Shown here piece by piece: positions 1 through 17,025 of a stretch of 64,000 nucleotides of DNA. The stretch spans positions 1,117,501-1,181,500 of the forward strand of contig NZ_LBIA02000001.1 in assembly GCF_001006325.2 (NCBI RefSeq), given 5' to 3'. The notes below the pieces were generated by a model, which had not been told where the DNA came from, did not search any database, and saw nothing but the letters and a program-made list of their open reading frames with translations. The DNA is from Afipia massiliensis. Its GTDB lineage: Bacteria > Pseudomonadota > Alphaproteobacteria > Rhizobiales > Xanthobacteraceae. Made by a program: the position numbers and the translations under genes. Positions within the stretch are counted from its first letter, which is position 1. Every line of letters starts with the position of its first letter.

Positions 1-424
1 CAAATGTTCAGTCGACGGACAGGATGTTGCCCGCTGGCTTGTTCGCGAGGGATGGGCGCTGGCGTTTCGTCGGTACTCTACTGACTATGTGCAGGATGAG
101 ACCGCCGCGCGCGATGCTCACAGCGGTCTTTGGAAAGGCTCCTTCATCGCCCCTTGGGACTGGCGACAGCGCTCACCTACCAGCGAGGTTCTAGGGGCAA
201 AATCAGTTTCGATTGACGCTAGCCGCGCCCTAACGGGCGCCTCCGCAGCACCTCCAAGCCCCAGTTGCGTCATCAAGGGCAATTTGCGGGGTAAGACTTG
301 TATCTATCACATTCCGACCGGTCGATATTACGACCGGCTAGATATGGCGAATAAGGCAACCCGTCGTTGGTTTTGCAGCGAAGCCGACGCGCAAGCCGCC
401 GGCTGCCGTCGCTCAAAACTCTAA
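1..424 (+). CDS. Thermonuclease-family protein, C-terminal part (5' end outside window)
   Basis: The reading frame is open from the first bases and continues through the ATG at 89, so the gene starts upstream of the window. The residues from about 35 to 55 (GLWKGSF..PWDWR) match the end of a staphylococcal-nuclease fold. The last 50 residues, with CVIKGN, IYH, GRYYDR and RWFCSEADA, resemble the small C-terminal domain often attached to such nucleases in rhizobia. The catalytic Arg/Glu residues would lie in the missing part, so activity cannot be judged. Such genes are frequent on rhizobial islands. The next gene begins 20 bases downstream. Confidence 0.75.
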   Translation, partial: KCSVDGQDVARWLVREGWALAFRRYSTDYVQDETAARDAHSGLWKGSFIAPWDWRQRSPTSEVLGAKSVSIDASRALTGASAAPPSPSCVIKGNLRGKTCIYHIPTGRYYDRLDMANKATRRWFCSEADAQAAGCRRSKL

Positions 425-444
425 CCGCGTAGACGAGTATTATA

Positions 445-1908
445 ATGAACGAAAAGGCCTCTAGGCGGCATGCAGCCATCTCAAGACTGCGCGAATTATT
501 TGGTCAAGCTCCCCACCCTTATCGCCCCTCAACTCAAATCTTCCTCGATCTCGACGTCGAGCAGGCGTCGCGCAATCAGGATCTCGCCCAACGTGGAGCT
601 GAGCGGGGAAGCAGTGAGCGTCCGGACGCCAATGCCACAGTGCTAGATGATATCGAGCACCAGGTCGTTGAAAGTACAGAAAGCCACAAGCAGACTGCTC
701 ACGCGATCTATCTCGAGCAGTTGCATACCTACGATGCCAGGCTCACGGCTCTCAACTTCGAAGAAAGATTCGCCATCATCCGCCAAGCCGCACCAGAAGC
801 GGTCGGTGATTTTGCCGCCGAAGCTTCAATGGGGCGCGACGAGCTGTTTGAACTGCGCCGTCGCCTGAACGAATCCGAAGCCGAACGTGAAGACTTTCGC
901 AAACGGCATAAAATCGCGCGACCCGCTCGGCTTTCCACCATCGGCAAGGTGTTACTTAAGCTTGGTCTGCTCGCAGTGCTGTTTGTGATCGAAGTAGCTG
1001 TGAACGGCGGGTTCCTATCGAAATCCAACCAAGGTGGCATTCTCGGTGGCCTTTCCGTCGCTTTCGTCTTCGCCGCCTTCAACATCATAGTTAGCTTTCT
1101 TTGTGGGCTTACCCCAATTCGCTTGATGTATCGCCGCAACATTATTTACAAGGCGATGGGATTCTTCTCGCTCCTCGCCTATCTCGCGCTTGCGGTGGTG
1201 CTAAATTTAGCCCTCGCTCATATCCGCGAAATTCCGCCCGACGTGCTAATCGATGTTGACCGCGAGGCGTTGAAGAGGCTGCTTGAGACACCGTTTGCTC
1301 TGCACGAAATCCAGTCTTGGCTCCTCTTCGGCATCGGTCTTGTATTTTCTATCATTGCGATGGCCGATGGCCTTTTATTTTTCGATCCGTACATCGGGTA
1401 CGCCGGCCTAGAGCGGCGGTGGCAGTCAGCCAGCGCGCGTTATCGGACCGCAAAGGAAGAATTAATCCAACAGCTGCGCGATATTCGCAACGACGCCTCG
1501 GATGCAATGAACGGCGCTGAAAGGGATCTTGCCATCCGAAGGTCTGAATACGACGCGCTCATGGTCGCTCGCGGCCGCTTATCTCAAAGATTTATCGAAC
1601 ATCAATCTCAGATTGAGCGCGCGACGAATGCTCTCCTGCAGGTTTATCGCGAAGCCAACCGGAGGGCTCGCTCAACCCCAGCGCCGGCCTATTTCGATCG
1701 CCCTTACGTTCTTGAGCGTACGCCTATCGAACCTGCCAATCGCGATCCAGACGAGCGCGAACGTTTGCGCCGCTCGATCGAAGAGGTTCAAGATCTCCTC
1801 AAGACGCAGGCAGAGGCGGTCCACGGTTCGTTTGATGCGGCCGTGAAAACCTACCGCGAGATCGACGAACTCTTCCCAGAAAGCAGTTATGCCAAGAACC
1901 AGACGTAG
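445..1908 (+). CDS. Four-TM membrane protein with coiled coils, first gene of a stator-like cassette
   Basis: I do not recognise the family. The 487-residue protein has a charged helical N-terminal region (1-165), four hydrophobic segments (about 168-190, 199-222, 236-258 and 291-313) and a long helical, coiled-coil-like C-terminal region (about 325-480). No catalytic motif is visible. It overlaps the next gene by 20 bases and is followed by a von Willebrand-like protein, a MotA-like protein and a MotB/OmpA-like protein. It is therefore probably an inner-membrane component of the same complex; that role is inferred only from context. The start is the ATG that follows the nuclease gene. Confidence 0.7.
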   Translation: MNEKASRRHAAISRLRELFGQAPHPYRPSTQIFLDLDVEQASRNQDLAQRGAERGSSERPDANATVLDDIEHQVVESTESHKQTAHAIYLEQLHTYDARLTALNFEERFAIIRQAAPEAVGDFAAEASMGRDELFELRRRLNESEAEREDFRKRHKIARPARLSTIGKVLLKLGLLAVLFVIEVAVNGGFLSKSNQGGILGGLSVAFVFAAFNIIVSFLCGLTPIRLMYRRNIIYKAMGFFSLLAYLALAVVLNLALAHIREIPPDVLIDVDREALKRLLETPFALHEIQSWLLFGIGLVFSIIAMADGLLFFDPYIGYAGLERRWQSASARYRTAKEELIQQLRDIRNDASDAMNGAERDLAIRRSEYDALMVARGRLSQRFIEHQSQIERATNALLQVYREANRRARSTPAPAYFDRPYVLERTPIEPANRDPDERERLRRSIEEVQDLLKTQAEAVHGSFDAAVKTYREIDELFPESSYAKNQT

Positions 1909-2719
1909 ACGTGCTCGACAGGACAACAATTTTGGCATTGCCGCGGTTGGCGGCATCGCTTTGTTTTTGTTAGCGGCTGTCGCGCTTGGGGCCTTTGGTT
2001 GGTTCTATTTCACGGCGCCGGTCAGACCCGTGCTGAATGCTCAATCTAACTGTCCGACCTCTGGGCCCGATGGCATTTCCGTTGTCCTTGTCGACACATC
2101 CGATGATCTCCCTGCCACGACCAAAAGCGAAGTCCAGAAGATCCTTGACGACCTCGTCTCAAGCTTGCCGCAATACTACCTTCTCGAAATACGCGTGCTC
2201 GACGTCGCTCAGAGCCGCAGCACCCCTCTGTTCGCTCGCTGCAACCCGGGCGATGGAACAGGGTTGAATAAATGGACCGACAATGAACGGCTGGCGCGAT
2301 CTCGTTGGCTCGAGACCTTCCGAAAGCCCGCCGAAGAAGCTATCCGCAAGAGTGTCACACCGGCTAAGGCAACAAGTTCGCCAATCATGGCGGCAATCCA
2401 AGACATCGCGATAGAGCAGTTCTCACCCGAGCGAGCCCGGAACATTCCAAAGAAGTTGACTGTCATCTCGGATATGATTGAGCATACCCGGGACTACAGC
2501 CAATATTCTCGAGGGGGCGATCTAACCTATCAGAGGTTCAAACAATCGCCAGCCTACTTGAAATACCGGACAAATCTCTATGGCGCGAAAGTCACGATAA
2601 ACTACGTAACGCGCCCTTCTGTAATGGCGGATACAAATCGCCATGCAGAATTTTGGATGACCTGGGTGAAAGACAACAGTGGGACCCTTGATCTGATACA
2701 TCGCCTACAAGGAACATAG
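1889..2719 (+). CDS. Membrane-anchored von Willebrand factor A-like protein
   Basis: This 276-residue protein has an arginine-rich start, one hydrophobic segment (about 17-40) and then a soluble domain. By the positive-inside rule the soluble part should be periplasmic. VVLVDTSDD at about 65-73 resembles the metal-site motif DxSxx of a von Willebrand A fold, and a later strand with LTVISDM (about 189-195) fits the second metal-site loop. This assignment rests on motif shape, not on a search. It overlaps the upstream gene by 20 bases and ends 2 bases before the MotA-like gene, so translation is probably coupled. Its role in the cassette is unknown. Confidence 0.6.
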   Translation: MPRTRRRRARQDNNFGIAAVGGIALFLLAAVALGAFGWFYFTAPVRPVLNAQSNCPTSGPDGISVVLVDTSDDLPATTKSEVQKILDDLVSSLPQYYLLEIRVLDVAQSRSTPLFARCNPGDGTGLNKWTDNERLARSRWLETFRKPAEEAIRKSVTPAKATSSPIMAAIQDIAIEQFSPERARNIPKKLTVISDMIEHTRDYSQYSRGGDLTYQRFKQSPAYLKYRTNLYGAKVTINYVTRPSVMADTNRHAEFWMTWVKDNSGTLDLIHRLQGT

Positions 2720-2721
2720 CC

Positions 2722-3762
2722 GTGTCTGATACATCGCCAGCATCTCAAAGCCTGCCACCCGGCCTTCTCGGGGGTGGAATATTCTTTGGAACCGTGATTA
2801 TCGGCTGCTTGTATATCGTTCTCTCGAAGGCATGGAATTTGTCGGCCGTAATGGTGACATCCGTGCCCGTCCTGATCATGATTGCTTACGCGGGGCTCAT
2901 GGCAGCGGCGCGGCTGTTGCGACTTCGCGATGATCAGGCTGGCGATAATCTCTACTACATGGGTTTTCTGTTCACACTGACCAGCCTTGCGGTCTCGCTC
3001 TATCAATTCACAGGTGAGGGGTCGGCTGAGGCAATCGTTCAGAACTTCGGCATCGCAATCGCATCAACTATCGCCGGCATTGCTCTGCGCATTTTCTTTC
3101 ATCAAATGCGCCGAGACCCGGTCGAGGTCGAAGCGACCGCGCGCTTGGAGCTCGCAGACGCGTCGAGACGAGTTAAACGGGAGCTCGAAGGCACAGTATT
3201 GGAGTTTGCCTACTTTCGTCGAATGACTCTGCAAACGATGACTGACGGCGTCGACGAGATGAAAGAAATGCTCGGCGAAATGCGGCAAGCCATAGCCGGC
3301 GAAATCCAGAAGATGGCCGGGGACATCAGCAGGCCCCTGGAAGAGACATCTCGCAAATCGGGAGATACGGTCGAGGCACTTGCCGAACGTATTTCGGCGA
3401 TCCTGGACGAAGTCGCCGAGCGGCTGGTCCGAGCGACAGATCACCTCTCCCGCGGTGCCGGTGCCTCCGTTGACGCGATGCGGACGATGGCTACCCAACT
3501 CAAAGCAATGCAGACACCTGAACAAATCATCGAGATAAAACTGGCGCCAATGATTCAGGGACTTTCCCGAGCCGTCAATTCTTTCAAGACAAGCGCCGAG
3601 ATCCACGAGAAAACAGTCGACAAGAGCTTGAAGCGGACCCAAGAACTCGCAAACGCGATTGCACGCCTTGCCGAGGAATTGCGCGCCGTGGACGCGAACT
3701 CGCCGGATCGTTCGACCGAAGGCTCATGGGGGCCGTTGGCGGGAGGCAAGGCAGCCGAGTAG
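2722..3762 (+). CDS. MotA/ExbB/ZorA-like membrane protein with long helical tail
   Basis: The start is GTG at 2722 with AAGGAA just upstream, 2 bases after the preceding stop. The 346-residue protein has four hydrophobic segments (about 13-34, 41-65, 77-95 and 104-126). The last two contain small and hydroxyl residues (LTSLAVS, IASTIAG), as in the pore-lining helices of MotA/ExbB-type stators. Residues 130-346 are charged and helical, comparable to the long cytoplasmic tail known in ZorA. The following gene encodes a MotB-like partner, which strongly supports a proton-driven stator pair. The family assignment is by architecture and should be treated as probable. Confidence 0.65.
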   Translation: MSDTSPASQSLPPGLLGGGIFFGTVIIGCLYIVLSKAWNLSAVMVTSVPVLIMIAYAGLMAAARLLRLRDDQAGDNLYYMGFLFTLTSLAVSLYQFTGEGSAEAIVQNFGIAIASTIAGIALRIFFHQMRRDPVEVEATARLELADASRRVKRELEGTVLEFAYFRRMTLQTMTDGVDEMKEMLGEMRQAIAGEIQKMAGDISRPLEETSRKSGDTVEALAERISAILDEVAERLVRATDHLSRGAGASVDAMRTMATQLKAMQTPEQIIEIKLAPMIQGLSRAVNSFKTSAEIHEKTVDKSLKRTQELANAIARLAEELRAVDANSPDRSTEGSWGPLAGGKAAE

Positions 3763-3795
3763 TATGGGACGGGGACGCAGGAATCGACGTCGGGC

Positions 3796-5043
3796 ATGAG
3801 CGAGCAGATCAACCGCCAAGGATCCTCTTATAGGCAAGGCCTCGTCCTTGGTCTCACCATGGCTGAGATCATGTTGTTGCTGGTGTTCTGTCTTCTTATC
3901 GCGATGGCAACTTTTTTGCGACGCGAGCAAGGAAAGCTCGCGGCAGCAGAAAAACGTTTAGAGCAGCAGCAGGCCGCGCGCGAACGCGATTCAAGTTCAA
4001 TCGCGGCCCTCAAGGAGGAAGCGGCCCTCATTGAGAAATTGGCGGCTTCCGTTGGGTCAGATCCAGTCAAGATCGACGAATACTGGCGAGACCTTGTCGA
4101 GAGTAAGGCCGCCATGAATCAAATTATAAAAGAAGGGACTTCGCTCAAAGAGCTGCGCGATAAAGCGGCGAATATGACATCGCTGCAAAAGGCCGGCATT
4201 GACACGGAAAAAGCGCTTCGAGACGCCGATATCGTGGCCGCTATAAAGCGGGCTCTGCCGGATGCCGAGCGGGTCGCGTTAACACCGCAATCCGCCGCTG
4301 AACTCGCTGCCAAAGGCGCTCGGTCGGCCGCAGGCGGCGGGGGCAACCGCTGGCCTCCAATCATAAGTCTTAGTGAAGAACGAGGATACTTTTTCAGAAC
4401 AGGAAGTGCTGAGCTCGAGCACAGGTTTAAAGAAGCGCTCACAACAACCACGCTCGATAAAATCCTTGATATCGTCAAGCAGCACGACATCGATGTGATC
4501 GAAGTTGTGGGACATACGGACGAGCAAGCTTACGGTCCGAGACGCGCTTCTGCACCAACTTCAGTGCCGACGGATACGTCGACTCCTATCCCCCTAGTCC
4601 CCGCTCCGCTCGTTGCGCGCACCTCAAATCTCGATCGCAGCCTCACTAGCGTGCTGAAAAACGAAGGCGATATCGGAAAGCTAATCCCAGCGGACAACGC
4701 AGGCCTCGGCTTGGCGCGAGCCGTCTCCGTGGTGAGCATCCTCCGGCAATCCCCGAAACTCGCCGGGTACAAAATGATTCCACTCTCCGGCGGTCAACTC
4801 ATCGACACCAACGAATCGCTTGCGCTGAGCGGAATGTCAGGCGGTGATGTGGCACAGCGTCGGCGAATCGAAATTAGGCTCCGCAAATCAACCCCGCATG
4901 AGGCCGCGGCATCGATCTTACCCCCACAAGCGCCGCCGAAGCGAGCCCCACCGAAGCAAATAGCTCCCCGGCCGGCGGCGGCGCTTCCGCCGGTGCCGGT
5001 GCCGCCCCGCCCATCCTCGCCCGTCAGTTTGTTTGGCAATTAG
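3796..5043 (+). CDS. MotB/ZorB-like protein with OmpA-type peptidoglycan-binding domain
   Basis: This 415-residue protein has one transmembrane helix (about 17-39) with an acidic residue inside it (TMAEIMLLL, Glu24). That position corresponds to the proton-binding acid of MotB-type stators. A coiled-coil stretch follows (about 44-85). From about 190 to 365 there is an OmpA-like domain with GHTDE (239-243), NAGLGLARA (about 301-309) and RRRIEIRL (about 355-362). An unusually long Ser/Thr/Pro-rich insertion follows GHTDE. The C-terminal 45 residues are Pro/Ala-rich. It is the last gene of the cassette, and a stator function together with the gene upstream is inferred. Confidence 0.75.
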   Translation: MSEQINRQGSSYRQGLVLGLTMAEIMLLLVFCLLIAMATFLRREQGKLAAAEKRLEQQQAARERDSSSIAALKEEAALIEKLAASVGSDPVKIDEYWRDLVESKAAMNQIIKEGTSLKELRDKAANMTSLQKAGIDTEKALRDADIVAAIKRALPDAERVALTPQSAAELAAKGARSAAGGGGNRWPPIISLSEERGYFFRTGSAELEHRFKEALTTTTLDKILDIVKQHDIDVIEVVGHTDEQAYGPRRASAPTSVPTDTSTPIPLVPAPLVARTSNLDRSLTSVLKNEGDIGKLIPADNAGLGLARAVSVVSILRQSPKLAGYKMIPLSGGQLIDTNESLALSGMSGGDVAQRRRIEIRLRKSTPHEAAASILPPQAPPKRAPPKQIAPRPAAALPPVPVPPRPSSPVSLFGN

Positions 5044-5436
5044 CAGCTCTGGATGATCGCGGGACAGCCGCGCCGAAATCGAAGTCGAGAAAATTTCCTG
5101 ATCGCGTCGCGATGTGCATTGGCCGCGGAAGGCACTATGCGGTGCTTCTGTGACCAGCATGGAGCTCGCCGCCCGTCCCGCCGTGGAACTTTCTTCGACC
5201 GGAACGCTGTGACACAGACTTCTCAAAGAGCTGAAAACAGCTGCAGGATAGCTGTCGGATCACCGATATCTGCGTAATCGCCTCCGATAACGCCGAGTGA
5301 TCTCCCGGTAACACCGGATGAGATCTCTCTACCCTGGAAGAACTCTTCCTACAGTTTCTACGCCGAATAACCTTCCCAGGCGGGGCATTTCGGTGCAGCC
5401 GGGTTCAGTTGATAAAACTGGGTGGCAGCGCGGCAA
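5044..5436. other. Non-coding gap between the convergent stator cassette and Z1 gene
   Basis: About 390 bases separate the stop of the MotB-like gene (plus strand) from the stop of the Z1 gene (minus strand). Open frames here are short and overlap without a convincing start or domain. I see no clear terminator, RNA gene or repeat. Confidence 0.5.
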
Positions 5437-7764
5437 TCATGCCGCCACCTTAGTCGCGAAAACGCAGGGTTCAGCATCGGACGGCACCGCAAAGATCGGC
5501 CACCAGAAATGATGAGCCGTCCAGTTGAGATCTCGCCCTCCTTCCTGCTGCAACAAAACAAGCGCCGGCTTGGTCCGCTTCGTATCCAAAATCTTCGCGC
5601 GTAACGCTGTACCCAAAATCGAGCGGCCGGATTTGTCGCCCGATTTATTTCGGTCCAGCCTTCTGCCCGTTTCGGCAATTAACAAGATTTTCCCGTCGCC
5701 CCCGTTCTGAATGTCGGCGTAATACGCAATGAGCGCCCGCATGGCGTCCCATTCAAACTCCGCGTTGTCGAACTCCATGCTTTCTTCAATAGCATCGACA
5801 ATAGCCATCGCCGTCTTCGCTTCGACCTCGACGAACTCGCCGCTATCGCGCCAGTTATCAGGAATCAGTTTGTCGATTTTCTTCTGAATGGCGGCCATCG
5901 CCGCCCCACCACGCGTCTGAAAGTCGCTCGGCAAAAGCATGCTGCTTTCCGAAACAGTTACGACATCGCTGAGCAGGACCTTGTTGGGGGCACAGGGCCT
6001 AACGCGGTTATTAGCATCGGACTGAATGAAAACAACGCCCTGGTCGTGATCCTTGTCAAGAAACGCTTTGCGCAAGGTATTTTCAAACTCATTGATCATG
6101 TAAAGCCGATCATAAACCGCGCGAGAAGTATAAAAACGCGTCACAGCGAGATCGCGGCGGCTCCGGTTGCCATACATGCGGGAATGCTGAAGGACCGTGT
6201 CGGCCTGCATCGTCTTTGGATTGCGCCCATAATAGAAAGCGATGAGATTCGGAATCGTAATTCCGCGGTCGAGAATGTTGCCTCCTACGTAGACATTGTA
6301 CGGCGTGCGCAGTTTCAGCTCGGCCTTATGGTCCAGAAGCGCCATCACATCTGCGTCCGAATTCACTCGCTCAACGACAATTTCATCGCTGCGCAAGGCG
6401 TCAATGAAGGTATCGAAGGCCTCGTCTCTCGAAGGCATTTGACCGCCATCGGCAATGACAGAGGCATTGAGGTCGTTATAAGCCGCGTCGAACAGCGGGC
6501 GAAGAGTTTCGGGGGCATCCGCTGCAGCCTTGATCACTGCCTCGAAAATCCAATTCAATACTTGGTCTTGCCAAGCATGCGCCGCCTTCTGCGTGTCGTT
6601 ATGGATGATCATCGTGTACTTCTGAGGCCGCTCGCCGACCTCGATCTGCTGCCGACGTCGAATGCCCGCGGCCGCAATGAACGTGACGATCGCTCGACGA
6701 ATGCCAACCGTGTTCGGACTATCGAGCACGCGGTCGGCGCTGATGCGGCGAAGGTCAGGCTTCCGCAGCGCATCCTGCTCTTGAGGCGTGACTTCGACAA
6801 CGAGACGAGCGCGCGGGTCGGTCTCTTCGAAAGAGCCGAAGTAGTCGTCACCGCCGACGTATCCATCATGAATGGGCAGAAGTTCCGTAAACGCCGGGCG
6901 CTTTGGTTTGAATACAGCACGCGCCCCGGTAGCGTTTTCATAGCCCTCGGGCTGCAGATACAAGGAATACGGAGTGGCTGTGACTTGCAGGAACGCAATG
7001 TCTTTTGAAAGACCCCGCAATTCATCGATTTGATTAGCGATTGTACCTTGATCGATTACTCCTTCGTCTCGCTTCGGCACGAAGCGAATTCCCGCCAGAT
7101 CCGCCTCATCATCCACGATAAGGATTTTGCGGTTTTGCAGAGCCGCATGCTCCCGCATGAACTCAATCAACCGTTCAAGGTTGCGCGCTTGTTTCTTGGC
7201 GACAACGACGATTTTGCGGCCGAGCTCGCTACGCGTGAGTTTCCCTGGCAGTTTCATAATATCGAGAACGATGAGCGCATCGTCCTCGATAAATTCCGCG
7301 AAATCGGAGCTCAGGCGCGAGACCGTTTGCGCGGAGAGCGTCTTTGTTCCCTTCGTGAGGACCAGCGCAATATCGATGTCATGGTCGAACGCTTGTGCAA
7401 TAGCGCCCACGAACGCCCGCGTCTTGCCGGACTGAATTTTGCCCAAGAGCATACCGGGCTGATCGCCGGAGGTCGCGTTGCCTTTCAATTTCTGAATCAC
7501 ATTGGTGACGCAGTTCGCCAAGTCGTCAGTATCCTTCCGGAAACTGCGAAGACGGCCATAGAAATTGGGACCATTTTTAAGTTCGGCCAGCTTGCGATTG
7601 TTGCGTTTGAGCCAATCACGGACCTGCTCACGGCGGAAGATTGGCCCAGATGCCAGTTCGCTCATCGGAAGGGGGAAGTCAGGAGCGCGGGTTCTCCAGT
7701 TTGCCACTGCTTGGCTGGTTACTCCCGCCATCGACGCGATTTCATTGATACCAACCAAATCCAT
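5437..7764 (-). CDS. Z1-domain ATPase with N-terminal helix-turn-helix
   Basis: This large protein (about 775 residues) is a P-loop ATPase of the Z1 family, a superfamily-2-like group found beside DNA methyltransferases and MORC-type ATPases in restriction loci. Walker A is GKIQSGKT (about 108-115) and Walker B is ILIVDDEAD (about 214-222). The C-terminal half carries the conserved Z1 region (YVGGNILDRGITIPNL and following). Residues 1-55 look like a MerR/AlpA-type helix-turn-helix (GINEIASMAGVTSQAVANW). I chose the ATG at 7764, preceded by GGGGGCGG, over an upstream ATG at 7815. The gene diverges from the methyltransferase operon across a short region with inverted repeats. Confidence 0.8.
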   Translation of the reverse strand: MDLVGINEIASMAGVTSQAVANWRTRAPDFPLPMSELASGPIFRREQVRDWLKRNNRKLAELKNGPNFYGRLRSFRKDTDDLANCVTNVIQKLKGNATSGDQPGMLLGKIQSGKTRAFVGAIAQAFDHDIDIALVLTKGTKTLSAQTVSRLSSDFAEFIEDDALIVLDIMKLPGKLTRSELGRKIVVVAKKQARNLERLIEFMREHAALQNRKILIVDDEADLAGIRFVPKRDEGVIDQGTIANQIDELRGLSKDIAFLQVTATPYSLYLQPEGYENATGARAVFKPKRPAFTELLPIHDGYVGGDDYFGSFEETDPRARLVVEVTPQEQDALRKPDLRRISADRVLDSPNTVGIRRAIVTFIAAAGIRRRQQIEVGERPQKYTMIIHNDTQKAAHAWQDQVLNWIFEAVIKAAADAPETLRPLFDAAYNDLNASVIADGGQMPSRDEAFDTFIDALRSDEIVVERVNSDADVMALLDHKAELKLRTPYNVYVGGNILDRGITIPNLIAFYYGRNPKTMQADTVLQHSRMYGNRSRRDLAVTRFYTSRAVYDRLYMINEFENTLRKAFLDKDHDQGVVFIQSDANNRVRPCAPNKVLLSDVVTVSESSMLLPSDFQTRGGAAMAAIQKKIDKLIPDNWRDSGEFVEVEAKTAMAIVDAIEESMEFDNAEFEWDAMRALIAYYADIQNGGDGKILLIAETGRRLDRNKSGDKSGRSILGTALRAKILDTKRTKPALVLLQQEGGRDLNWTAHHFWWPIFAVPSDAEPCVFATKVAA

Positions 7765-12790: not shown

Positions 12791-14134
12791 TCAAACTGTG
12801 GCAGCGAGCTCAACATCTGCAATATCTGCAGCAGACGACATTTGAAAATCAACATCGCACAGCGCCCGAACCCGAGTGAGCATATCTTGGCTCGTCGATA
12901 CGTCAATTGTCGCCATTACTATCCGACCATCGCTGCCACTTACCAGATGACTTCCTGTCACTCCCTCCGATCGATGAAGTTCAGCATGATGGGGATAGAG
13001 AAGCACCAAGCGAGGGCACCGATAGATTTGGCCATAAGCCATCATTTGATAAATGTCAGACTGGTTTACACCTTGCTTGGAGTCGTCGATCTGCGCGCTA
13101 AGCCGCTTCCACTTGGTATCAATTACAAATTCGACCGTGGATCCTCGCTTTATGAGGATGTCGGGCTTCGTCATGAACCGCCGCTCGCCGCTCTCGACAT
13201 CCTCTAAGCAATACAACCGGCCACCTTGCGACGTTACGGACAAGCCGGTTCCAGCTAATGCCCTTTTCAGCATTATAGAAACGTACTCTTCAAAAAGAGT
13301 ATTCATCTCGAAAAGCAGCGAAAAGCCTTTTCCCTTTCCATCTGAGGTCGTCTGGAACCGACCGCCAAGAAGCAATCGCGCAAGGTTGACGATCTCTCTC
13401 CATCGCTCATTAGTTCGATCTAAGATTAGATCGTGCCATCTAAGCGCCGGGATCGGAACGTCTGCAATTTCTGCATATGCGAAAGCAAGTTCAGATAGCC
13501 TCCGCTGATTCTCATTGGATCGCGATATGCGAGCGAGCCGCGAGATGGCTGCTTTCATGACCTGGTTAAGCGCAATATCCGGCGACAAGGCATCAAAACG
13601 ACAGGCCAACTTCTGCGGATGAGCAACCAATGCTGTAAACTGGCGGGTAATGTTGAGCTGGCCTCGTAGAGCCGACAAATCCTCTTCGCAGTCCACATAG
13701 CGACGCGGCATACCTTGACGAAGCAAGTCGGCAAGTTTGCGCGCGAACAGGCCGATAAGAATCTCAAGTAGATTCTCCTTTTGCCATCCGAGGTCTGTAA
13801 CCGCCCCGCTGGCAATTTTCATGTCAAGTACTGCAGCCAGCATGTGGATGAGCTGCTTACGGATGCGCCCGGAAGTTTTCTGGGCGTCGGGCTCGCCAGG
13901 GAAGTCAATTTTTGGAAGAATCTCTAAAGAGCAACCTTCCGCTGCGATCACCCCCACGACTTGAGCAACACGAAGGTCTCGTCTGCCGTGGGTCAGGATT
14001 CGCGCGCCGCCTTCTCCGCCCAGAGGAGAACTTCTAGCGACAGCAGCGATGCGATCTGCAGCCCATTCGGGTATGCAATCTTCGCTCCCTCCGTAGCGAA
14101 GACTCCGCCATTCAAGAACGGTCCGACGGATCAT
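12791..14134 (-). CDS. mcrC: McrC-like restriction endonuclease subunit
   Basis: This 447-residue protein has the McrC layout: an N-terminal region that should contact the AAA+ partner, the conserved segment ALRGQLN (about 155-161), and a C-terminal PD-(D/E)XK nuclease (MTKPDILI with Asp325, then VIDTKWK with Asp339 and Lys341), followed by SDIYQMMAYG. It supplies the DNA-cutting activity and binds the GTPase McrB. Its start overlaps the mcrB stop by 4 bases, so the two are translationally coupled. The family usually acts on methylated DNA; the target here is not known. Confidence 0.9.
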   Translation of the reverse strand: MIRRTVLEWRSLRYGGSEDCIPEWAADRIAAVARSSPLGGEGGARILTHGRRDLRVAQVVGVIAAEGCSLEILPKIDFPGEPDAQKTSGRIRKQLIHMLAAVLDMKIASGAVTDLGWQKENLLEILIGLFARKLADLLRQGMPRRYVDCEEDLSALRGQLNITRQFTALVAHPQKLACRFDALSPDIALNQVMKAAISRLARISRSNENQRRLSELAFAYAEIADVPIPALRWHDLILDRTNERWREIVNLARLLLGGRFQTTSDGKGKGFSLLFEMNTLFEEYVSIMLKRALAGTGLSVTSQGGRLYCLEDVESGERRFMTKPDILIKRGSTVEFVIDTKWKRLSAQIDDSKQGVNQSDIYQMMAYGQIYRCPRLVLLYPHHAELHRSEGVTGSHLVSGSDGRIVMATIDVSTSQDMLTRVRALCDVDFQMSSAADIADVELAATV

Positions 14135-17025
14135 CTGAATTGATCGTAACAGGAATCGCTGAATGGCGTCTTGACGCTCCAGCGATAGCGTTGTTCGCCG
14201 CCTTCATCAGCATTGATTCCGATAGGCGCGATGAGCGCAGCGCGCTCCAGAAACTGGCCCTCATTTTCCGTGTCGCCAAGCGCGACTGCGACCTTGCTCC
14301 AGTCCTCGTAAAAGTATTCCGCCAGCAAAGGGATAACTTTGTTTCGCATGACAGCGTCCACTTCAGAGCGAGATTTACAGCTCATAAAATAGGCATGTCC
14401 AATTTGATGCTCGCGATCAAACAGATACTCGATCCGTTCATTCAAGGTCTTCAGTAACTTCACCAAATTCACTTGCGTCCGCTGACTAGCGTCTACAAGC
14501 ACCGTCGGATCTGGCATCAGTTCGCGAAACTCGAAACGCCGCCGCAACGCTGTATCGAGCAATGCAATTGAGCGATCGGCAGTATTCATTGTGCCAACAA
14601 TATGAAGGTTTGCGGGAACGCCAAACATTTCGCGGGAGTACGGAAGACGAATCGTCAACTGGTTTTCCGCGCCAAGGCGCTTGTCCGCCTCAAGCAGCGT
14701 GATCAGTTCGCCGAAAACCTTGGAAATATTGGCCCGATTAATCTCGTCAATAATTAGCACAAATGACTCGGGCACCCCGCTCGCATCGAGCTGCTGGCTA
14801 GCTATGTAACGTTCGAGAGCCGGCACGTTCAGATCTTCGCGCGTCAATAAATAAATGGACCTCATCGAGAATCCACGTGCATAAATTTCCTCAACCGGGA
14901 CCCCCGCCCTATCGCTCCATAGCCATCGAACGCCGCGCCGGTGAGAGTAGTTGCCGCTCTCGCGTGGAACGTATTGATACTGGTCGGTCACAACACCGAT
15001 CGCGCGAAACAGACTGTTGCCTTTCGAAACAACGATGAGGTCGCCCTCTTTCATCCAGTTGCGAAAAATGTATGGGCACTGCACACGCCCACTCATTGCG
15101 TTGGGTTCAGGCTCATCTGGATAAGCTTGCTTCCACGCTTCAATGAATGCTTCCCGTTTCTCAAAGCGGCCGTCCGTCCAGTCCATATTGCCGAAACCGA
15201 GCAGCGCGTAGCTTCCCTCAAGTGCTTCCTCGAACAGATATGAATCGTCGGGATTGGAGGCTTCGCCGATCGACATCTTGAAAACCTGGCGGTCGCCGAT
15301 CTTGAATTGTGAATTGCCGGGACCGGTGCTGGTCTGCGCGCGCCGTGTGATGCGCCGAAAAATGCCCGGTTCGGGGACGAGCCTGAAGCCCGCGGACGGC
15401 CCCCCTCTAGCTCCCGACGCGCCCTCGTCTAAGTCGACCGAGTCTTCGTTGCCTTGATGGGGACGCAGACCTTCTACAAACTCCTCGTAACTGAATGACT
15501 GGTGAAAAGTGACAAACTCGATACGCCCAGACGCAACAAGGCGGTCGTACTCCTCCCGCAGCTCCCTTGGATGCTCCGGGGCCCTGCCGTTACACAAGGC
15601 GACGGCCTCTCGCGCCGTGGCATAGGTTTTTCCTGTTCCAGGTGGGCCGTATAATATTCGATTTGTTGGCACGGCTGCTGCACGCGACTCGATGCTCAAA
15701 GTTTCCCCCTGAATAGTTTTCTCGAGTTCGTTCTCAGATCCGTTGTAGGTCGCCCAGATGAAGCCTTGAACATCCCAGAGATCTCGAGGGCGCCACCTCC
15801 AGTCCTCTCTCATCACTTTCAATATTTCTTCACTCAATGAAAGGATCTCGTCGTACTCCTCTGCCGAGAACGGAGCATTCTTGAGAAGCGAACGGTGAAG
15901 AAGGCGCATTCCGACTGCATGGATAGGTTGGTATCGCACGACGATCGCGCGCGCCGGCAACGCAAGCGCGAGAAGCGTGGTCGGAATTGTGCGCATATCC
16001 CGATAAGGCATATTTCCGTCTTGCCCATCTGAATAAATGGGCCATACCTTCCGAACGAACTCTTGGACCGCAAGAGAGGCATGAAGCGTGGTCCGAACTA
16101 GTACGCCTGCAGCTTCATCAATCAGTGATGAATCTACGGCCCGCACGTCGCGTAACCGATTCGTCATCCTCCAACCCAATAGATTCGATTCCTTTGAGTT
16201 CAGGAGATCGAAAAACTCACGCCCAAGCTCGATGTCTGTTTTTCCGTCTGCCCGACTAAGTATCTCACTCGCACGCGAAATGAGGGCTTGCTTGTATCGA
16301 CGCTCTTCTTCCCAATAACCGCCATGATTGGCGTCAAAGCCGACCGCTTCAAAATCTGGGAATCGAGACGTAAAAGCTTGCTTCAGCCCTTCCAGCGCAA
16401 CCCGATCCAGCCGATGACTTTGATCGTACCAATTGAGCACGCTTCTAAAGCGCCCTTCGTCGCCTATACGTACGCTCAAAACATCCTTTGGAAAGCCGTG
16501 TTGCCGTAGAAACTCTGAAGGATTATGGCTCAGTCGTCCGGGGAGGTTTGAATGTCTGCCGCGCGAGGCAGCATACAGTTCGAATTCCCACTCCTTGGGC
16601 GCTGCACGGCCGTCAGTCTCTAACCACAGCTGAACTGTTTTGATATCGCGTTGGAGCGCTATCGTTCGTCCGTCCGCCAGGAGAAACGAGATTATTTTAT
16701 CGTTTTCCACCTCCGGATTACCGTATCGACCTCGCAATTCCACTTCCGCGGCAGCAACATCGATTGGCGCCGTCTCTCCTAAGGCAAAGGTAAAGACAAC
16801 TGTCGAACTGTTCGCAGGTCCGTCTCGGTTGATCTCACGCACTCGGGCGTCAGCTAAAAACTTATTGCTCCCAATTGCACTGCAAACAGCTGGGAGAGCG
16901 TTTACGAGCTTCATCTCGCGATGCACATCGCCCGCTCTAACCGCTAATTGCTTGTTTCCACGAGATCTTGCTGGCTCTATGTAATTGGCAATCACAAACT
17001 GGCGAATATCATCGGCCTGGCTCAT
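14131..17025 (-). CDS. mcrB: McrB-like AAA+ GTPase with an EVE-like insertion
   Basis: This 964-residue protein has Walker A GPPGTGKT (about 460-467), Walker B LIIDEINRANISKVFGELI (about 757-775) and the McrB signature MNTADRSIALLDTALRRRF (about 813-831). The N-terminal 440 residues resemble DNA-binding regions of McrB-type proteins. Between Walker A and Walker B (about 573-725) is an extra domain (VFKMSIGE, YALLGFG, GDLIVVSKGN, AIGVV) like an EVE/PUA modified-base reader. The motor would translocate DNA for McrC cleavage. The gene is divergent from the small unknown gene at 17115. Confidence 0.9.
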   Translation of the reverse strand: MSQADDIRQFVIANYIEPARSRGNKQLAVRAGDVHREMKLVNALPAVCSAIGSNKFLADARVREINRDGPANSSTVVFTFALGETAPIDVAAAEVELRGRYGNPEVENDKIISFLLADGRTIALQRDIKTVQLWLETDGRAAPKEWEFELYAASRGRHSNLPGRLSHNPSEFLRQHGFPKDVLSVRIGDEGRFRSVLNWYDQSHRLDRVALEGLKQAFTSRFPDFEAVGFDANHGGYWEEERRYKQALISRASEILSRADGKTDIELGREFFDLLNSKESNLLGWRMTNRLRDVRAVDSSLIDEAAGVLVRTTLHASLAVQEFVRKVWPIYSDGQDGNMPYRDMRTIPTTLLALALPARAIVVRYQPIHAVGMRLLHRSLLKNAPFSAEEYDEILSLSEEILKVMREDWRWRPRDLWDVQGFIWATYNGSENELEKTIQGETLSIESRAAAVPTNRILYGPPGTGKTYATAREAVALCNGRAPEHPRELREEYDRLVASGRIEFVTFHQSFSYEEFVEGLRPHQGNEDSVDLDEGASGARGGPSAGFRLVPEPGIFRRITRRAQTSTGPGNSQFKIGDRQVFKMSIGEASNPDDSYLFEEALEGSYALLGFGNMDWTDGRFEKREAFIEAWKQAYPDEPEPNAMSGRVQCPYIFRNWMKEGDLIVVSKGNSLFRAIGVVTDQYQYVPRESGNYSHRRGVRWLWSDRAGVPVEEIYARGFSMRSIYLLTREDLNVPALERYIASQQLDASGVPESFVLIIDEINRANISKVFGELITLLEADKRLGAENQLTIRLPYSREMFGVPANLHIVGTMNTADRSIALLDTALRRRFEFRELMPDPTVLVDASQRTQVNLVKLLKTLNERIEYLFDREHQIGHAYFMSCKSRSEVDAVMRNKVIPLLAEYFYEDWSKVAVALGDTENEGQFLERAALIAPIGINADEGGEQRYRWSVKTPFSDSCYDQFR

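Follow-up and report, generated by a model that had tools for sequence, protein, structure and literature searches.

Zorya, a stator-based defence system, acts through cytoplasmic nucleases. Here we describe a conserved bacterial membrane cassette of four genes, P1-P2-P3-P4, that resembles part of a rotary motor and lies in a 64,000-nucleotide stretch of the Afipia massiliensis genome (contig NZ_LBIA02000001.1, positions 1,117,501 to 1,181,500 of the forward strand), the whole of which we call the window. With Zorya the cassette shares a stator-like pair, a long tail on the A-like subunit, an OmpA-like domain on the B-like subunit and a candidate nuclease effector; it differs in that its nuclease is predicted to be periplasmic and is linked or fused to P4, whereas that of Zorya is cytoplasmic, and in having P1, a von Willebrand-type (vWA) protein P2 and a Glu in the B-subunit helix. 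As in MotAB/PomAB, TolQR and ExbBD, the B subunit spans the membrane once, has an acidic residue in that helix and bears an OmpA-like domain matching PomB; unlike those systems, P3 is not matched by TolQ/ExbB profiles and the partners include the vWA protein, P1 and a nuclease. The linked or fused proteins carry the domains of secreted thermonucleases (staphylococcal nucleases, SNase, PF00565) and of GmrSD_C/DUF1524 HNH nucleases over the Pfam cut-offs, but here these are attached, genomically or covalently, to a stator-like subunit. The closest printed idea that we found is that vWA proteins beside TolQ-like motors are force transducers, with either an SHLS motif or, where TolR is lacking, an Asp-bearing pore helix (PMC12204202). 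Our cassette likewise encodes an inner-membrane-tethered vWA protein together with a motor-like gene; it differs in that P2 shows by eye neither the SHLS motif nor an acidic pore-helix residue, that P4 is a separate B-like subunit, and that a nuclease is linked. Section 8 of that article describes no linked nuclease and no system that pairs a separate MotB-like subunit with P1, and nothing among the papers listed by searches of the open PMC literature was recognized as this cassette.

Based on the gene order, the vWA fold of P2, the invariant Glu and OmpA-like domain of P4, the linkage of an SNase gene and the C-terminal fusion of nucleases to P4, all of them computed observations, we tentatively propose, at a little short of even confidence, that these genes specify a five-part unit: a stator-like inner-membrane complex of P3 and P4, the polytopic P1, P2 with its vWA domain tethered to the membrane, and a nuclease in the periplasm. 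With similar reserve we suggest that this envelope complex holds or triggers the nuclease against incoming DNA, as a "Zorya inside out". The features of the locus, in window coordinates, are:

1..424, + strand: 3' part of the SNase (thermonuclease) gene, predicted to be secreted; the gene begins upstream of the window
445..1908, + strand: P1, 487 aa, a membrane protein that has four hydrophobic helices as well as long stretches of helix; found in 106 loci
940..1380, + strand: membrane part of P1, residues 166-312, from structure-model helices and hydropathy
1889..2719, + strand: P2, 276 aa, with one membrane helix and a vWA domain, probably periplasmic (AlphaFold, Foldseek, VIA-align)
2060..2716, + strand: vWA domain of P2, residues 58-276, by the extent of the structural matches
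2722..3762, + strand: P3, 346 aa, stator-A-like, with membrane helices followed by a helical tail; weak MotA/ZorA homology
2764..3108, + strand: membrane part of P3, residues 15-129, from conservation and hydropathy; T85 and T116 are invariant
3796..5043, + strand: P4, 415 aa, MotB/OmpA-like, with a membrane helix, a helical linker, an OmpA-like domain and a proline-rich end
3865..3867, + strand: codon of Glu24, the invariant residue of the P4 membrane helix
4354..4890, + strand: OmpA-like domain of P4, about residues 187-365, from the profile match to PomB chains

A promoter and terminator scan of 4900-5500 found nothing.

A sequence-only reading of the window had correctly recognized the tightly packed, co-directional cassette, which proves to be a conserved four-gene unit. 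A P4 scan of genome contigs recovered 114 relatives, of which 80 were kept, and further relatives were added from genome searches. P1 and P2 are present in 106 loci (L014, at a contig edge, L023, a P4 remnant, and L248, where P1 and P2 were not found, are excluded from the count), and P1-P2-P3-P4 lie on the same strand in the same order in 103/106, so that the survey of gene order set beforehand as a potential refutation instead upholds the unit. Because the 106 loci include duplicates, the 41 clusters, each scored positive if any member is positive, are the fairer unit of counting. The distribution of the cassette is patchy: with the window's genome counted throughout, P3 occurs in 4/149 genomes of the family (one marginal), P4 in 14/297 genomes of the order and P1 in 13/385 genomes of the class (some matches weak), while the 11/398 phylum genomes with P1 all carry the label own, family, order or class. 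The P4 profile gave 24 matches in 398 genomes of the phylum, those outside the class covering the OmpA-like part only. P1 is found on 24/72,556 plasmid records and in 0/50,697 phage records, and the hosts of the relatives are soil- and plant-associated. Decayed copies were also seen, namely a lone P4 remnant in one Bradyrhizobium (L023:9926-11071) and a Mesorhizobium copy whose P2 and P4 frames are split (L076:9914-11130).

P4 bears out the expectation of a MotB/OmpA-like subunit whose membrane helix has an acidic residue. Its single membrane helix carries Glu24, invariant in 20/20 sequences, and a pattern search places Glu, not Asp, in this helix in 101/103 loci, as befits a stator B subunit. 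The P4 profile matches PomB chains (best E 9.5e-6), pointing to a periplasmic OmpA-like domain of the MotB type that putatively binds peptidoglycan; the Pfam OmpA model gives the window P4 16.6 bits, under the cut-off of 27.2, and is over the cut-off in L143 and P0242. The von Willebrand-like partner was also read correctly. The AlphaFold model of P2 (pLDDT, predicted local distance difference test, 87.7), which like that of P1 was predicted as a single chain, matches vWA/I domains in both Foldseek and VIA-align, and D69, D72, S164, S194, D195, Cys55 and Cys118 are invariant in 51 sequences, giving a predicted vWA fold with acidic and hydroxyl residues like those of a metal-ion-dependent adhesion site. 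This identity emerged from the fold searches only, the P2 sequence profile having found nothing convincing in the PDB. The P2 membrane helix is FGIAAVGGIALFLLAAVAL, in which no acidic or His position is invariant across the 51 sequences. For P1, whose model has helices at 166-191, 198-222, 233-262 and 289-312, the best PDB match by sequence reached only E 0.97, and Foldseek found no match at E <= 0.001, the best, at 4.7e-3, being a coiled-coil-rich chain.

The sequence-only reading overlooked a fifth part, an SNase gene with a signal-like N-terminus that ends 20 bp upstream of P1. It matches PF00565 with 57 bits, over the cut-off of 21 (G000:C1:1117328-1117636); its candidate ATG, at L145:12212, gives 237 aa with an N-terminus that looks signal-peptide-like by eye. 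A distant alphaproteobacterial locus has an SNase directly after P4, and linkage was therefore tested across the collection. In 22/41 clusters (47/106 loci) the cassette has a nuclease fused to P4 or no more than 3 kb away, a limit that was set after the data had been seen (the L028 nuclease lies at 3,085 bp) and a count in which L233 contributes a 31-residue SNase fragment only and L143 an HNH instead of an SNase domain. The number of clusters expected to have an SNase nearby by chance is about 0.15 of 41, if some 0.36% of 6-kb stretches hold an SNase, as follows from a background of 145 matches, totalled from tabulated PF00565 search results for 61 genomes of the order (2.4 each on average), and an assumed 4 Mb per genome; 20 control regions of 12 kb held one SNase. 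The nuclease gene stands upstream on the same strand in 21 loci, downstream on the opposite strand in 16, downstream on the same strand in three and upstream on the opposite strand in three, and is fused in three. The deposited annotation likewise places thermonuclease genes next to the cassette on three plasmids, namely pRL11 of Rhizobium johnstonii 3841 (RL_RS31080-31100), one from Microvirga and one from Sinorhizobium.

A tree was built from 78 SNases, 48 of them linked and 30 free, with L233 and identical sequences left out. Its end branches are long, and the linkage label needs at least nine changes on it (bootstrap 8-11), four of them forced by well-supported branches, and linkage has therefore been gained or lost several times; the free SNases came from the PF00565 search without individual checks for a nearby cassette, and the genome of one, L202, carries a cassette elsewhere. 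The linked proteins are PF00565 members, over the cut-off and keeping D10, D12, T13, R22, E30 and R74, which we take to be catalytic-type residues, in 46/46 domains. A hydrophobic stretch precedes the domain in 33/36 distinct unfused linked SNases (at 1.5 or more on a rough hydropathy scale).

In L144, L230 and L235 an SNase domain, and in L143 an HNH (GmrSD_C) domain, forms the C-terminal part of P4 itself, each over the Pfam cut-off, and by topology these fused domains would sit at the periplasmic end of P4. An HNH query matched L124/L143 only, among the loci then collected. With the P4 parts of L143 and L144 as queries, 164 proteins were retrieved; among the 120 of these distant P4 homologues that were listed, 47 carry HNH and 11 SNase. 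Given the fusions and the repeated linkage, a nuclease at the periplasmic end of P4 is the best-supported effector. L142, L233 and L234 share, by eye, a third type of P4 C-terminus, which no Pfam model matches over its cut-off.

In light of this architecture the most likely job of the cassette is cutting DNA that enters through the envelope, and a defence role is plausible. As to energy use, sensing and triggering, we infer the following course. P3 would be the pore and tail subunit and P4 the acidic-helix subunit anchored to peptidoglycan, with ions passing between them through the Glu; P2 or P1 might sense that the envelope is disturbed, for instance by DNA injection, and this would release or turn the complex, bringing the nuclease onto DNA as it crosses the periplasm. 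Such a machine would be Zorya turned inside out, with its nuclease outside the inner membrane. A more specific version, which we regard as possible if rather doubtful, is an ion-powered, peptidoglycan-anchored alphaproteobacterial machine with a Glu-type B subunit and an exchangeable periplasmic SNase or HNH that destroys phage or plasmid DNA at entry. If the proposal is true, a stator-like complex with a periplasmic subunit that bears or adjoins the nuclease would be a new direction for such machines, and sets of genes annotated as "hypothetical", "OmpA family" and "thermonuclease" in rhizobia and their relatives would be explained.

How far this holds depends in part on P3, for which the sequence-only label of a MotA/ExbB-like protein with a helical tail stands as to topology, its membrane helices and long tail fitting a MotA/ZorA-type subunit, and much less as to descent. 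The apparent homology to MotA is weak, which counts against the proposed unit. Against a ZorA profile built from 11 loci, five of them under the family cut-off, hhalign aligned P3 at E 0.0016 with TM3-TM4 in register, though at a probability of only 15.9%; T85 and T116, invariant in 21 sequences, fall in the matching helices, and PF01618 (MotA_ExbB) is touched by 4/21 P3 members, with a best E of 0.01, under the cut-off. On this evidence we call P3 stator-like, not a proven stator. Were P3 no MotA homologue and nothing ion-driven, the complex would be a static peptidoglycan-anchored sensor or scaffold holding the nuclease. Such a scaffold would agree with the lack of any hhalign match to TolQ/ExbB profiles, on which grounds that kinship was ruled out, and with single-sequence ZorA-profile scores little above controls (best 8.7 bits, against 5.2 shuffled and 5.1 reversed), those for TolQ showing no excess; the ZorA alignment, the PF01618 contacts, the two invariant threonines and the kept Glu of P4 argue the other way, and we consider it improbable. 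Far less probable still is a divergent Zorya type with cytoplasmic partners. The P3 tail does match ZorA tails (E 6.5e-4 for the ZorA match of P3 in its own genome), and ZorB models touch P4 weakly (E 0.0005-0.01 only), but every match is below its cut-off, NF033914 (ZorA) giving 19.5 bits, in the tail only, against 190. PADLOC moreover matched no ZorC, ZorD, ZorE, ZorF or ZorG among the window and upstream proteins scanned, in keeping with the sequence-only view that the partners differ from ZorC, ZorD and ZorE, and the linked nuclease is periplasmic by topology; with no ZorA or ZorB model near its cut-off, membership in Zorya was rejected. A PDB search with the P3 sequence returned matches of the coiled-coil tail, ZorA 8qyd being one among many unrelated chains. 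Elsewhere in this genome, at L004 (G000:C1:2058391), lies another MotA-like/OmpA-MotB-like gene pair, distinct from that of the cassette, and weak PF01618 matches of this kind occur in many members of the genus.

Several further observations weigh against a DNA-cutting unit of five parts. Nineteen of the 41 clusters are without a linked nuclease; the largest, from Rhizobium, has one in just two of its 33 loci; two Paracoccus plasmid cassettes have no thermonuclease gene within 8 kb; 62/120 listed distant P4 homologues carry neither nuclease, many of them being shorter and perhaps incomplete; and the distant loci L237 and L238, not at contig ends, have P1-P2 without detectable P3 and P4 (L236 stops after P3 at a contig end). 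By eye, no replacement periplasmic nuclease was evident among the nearest genes of SNase-less cassettes in two locus lists, covering 15 loci and 13/16 of the second, with two loci in common and one, L045, that does have an SNase. Among the flanking families listed, 25 of the 122 Pfam families in 102 proteins at 18 loci, most are housekeeping. A Tol-Pal-like motor for envelope maintenance or force transduction, with the nuclease as an optional passenger or as a means of clearing DNA from the periplasm, would account for these flanks and for the Rhizobium cluster, whose cassettes are nearly always SNase-less and mostly share a single chromosomal setting among ordinary genes, and it would recall the vWA proteins proposed as force transducers beside TolQ-like motors (PMC12204202, section 8). 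Yet two unrelated nuclease domains are repeatedly linked and fused, and so patchy a presence, as in the 14/297 genomes of the order, is odd for maintenance; we hold this motor to be unlikely. Somewhat less likely again is that the cassette takes up or scavenges environmental DNA, which the nuclease would process in the periplasm and the complex would move or release: a periplasmic nuclease with a possibly ion-driven complex, hosts from soil and plants, and the known reclaiming of DNA by secreted nucleases (title of PMC11458576) would suit it, whereas the patchy spread does not, and no competence or phosphate genes were recognized in the flanks read, from partial lists. The nuclease-bearing stator-like complex remains the reading that we prefer, one also favoured by the patchy spread, the presence on plasmids and the restriction-modification and type III CRISPR neighbours described next.

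The sequence-only reading had further placed the cassette in a nuclease-rich island, and its overall proposal fares unevenly: the four-gene unit, the acidic B subunit, the vWA protein and the non-Zor partners hold, while the nuclease was missed and general enrichment in defence islands is not claimed. In the window the cassette does have restriction-modification genes as neighbours. Among 102 flanking proteins PADLOC found 25 families at E <= 1e-15, against 7 in 102 controls sampled from 196 proteins in 20 regions; a single locus, L234 (G918), contributes many of the 25, and there the cassette is flanked immediately by Cas6 on one side and CARF/Csx1-Cas10 genes on the other, within a type III CRISPR locus. 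At L231 it adjoins an AbiEii-like gene, and at L142 some 3 kb separate it from an STK_OB-like gene. By eye, the P1-P2 pair adjoins caspase-like protease-like and sulfatase-modifying-type-like genes in L237 and an exonuclease-III-like gene in L238, and on Paracoccus aminovorans plasmid IV (L277) an SNase-less cassette is immediately preceded by a VgrG gene of type VI secretion. Elsewhere in the window, the 964 aa product of 14131-17025 on the - strand weakly matches type II restriction enzymes and PDC-S02.

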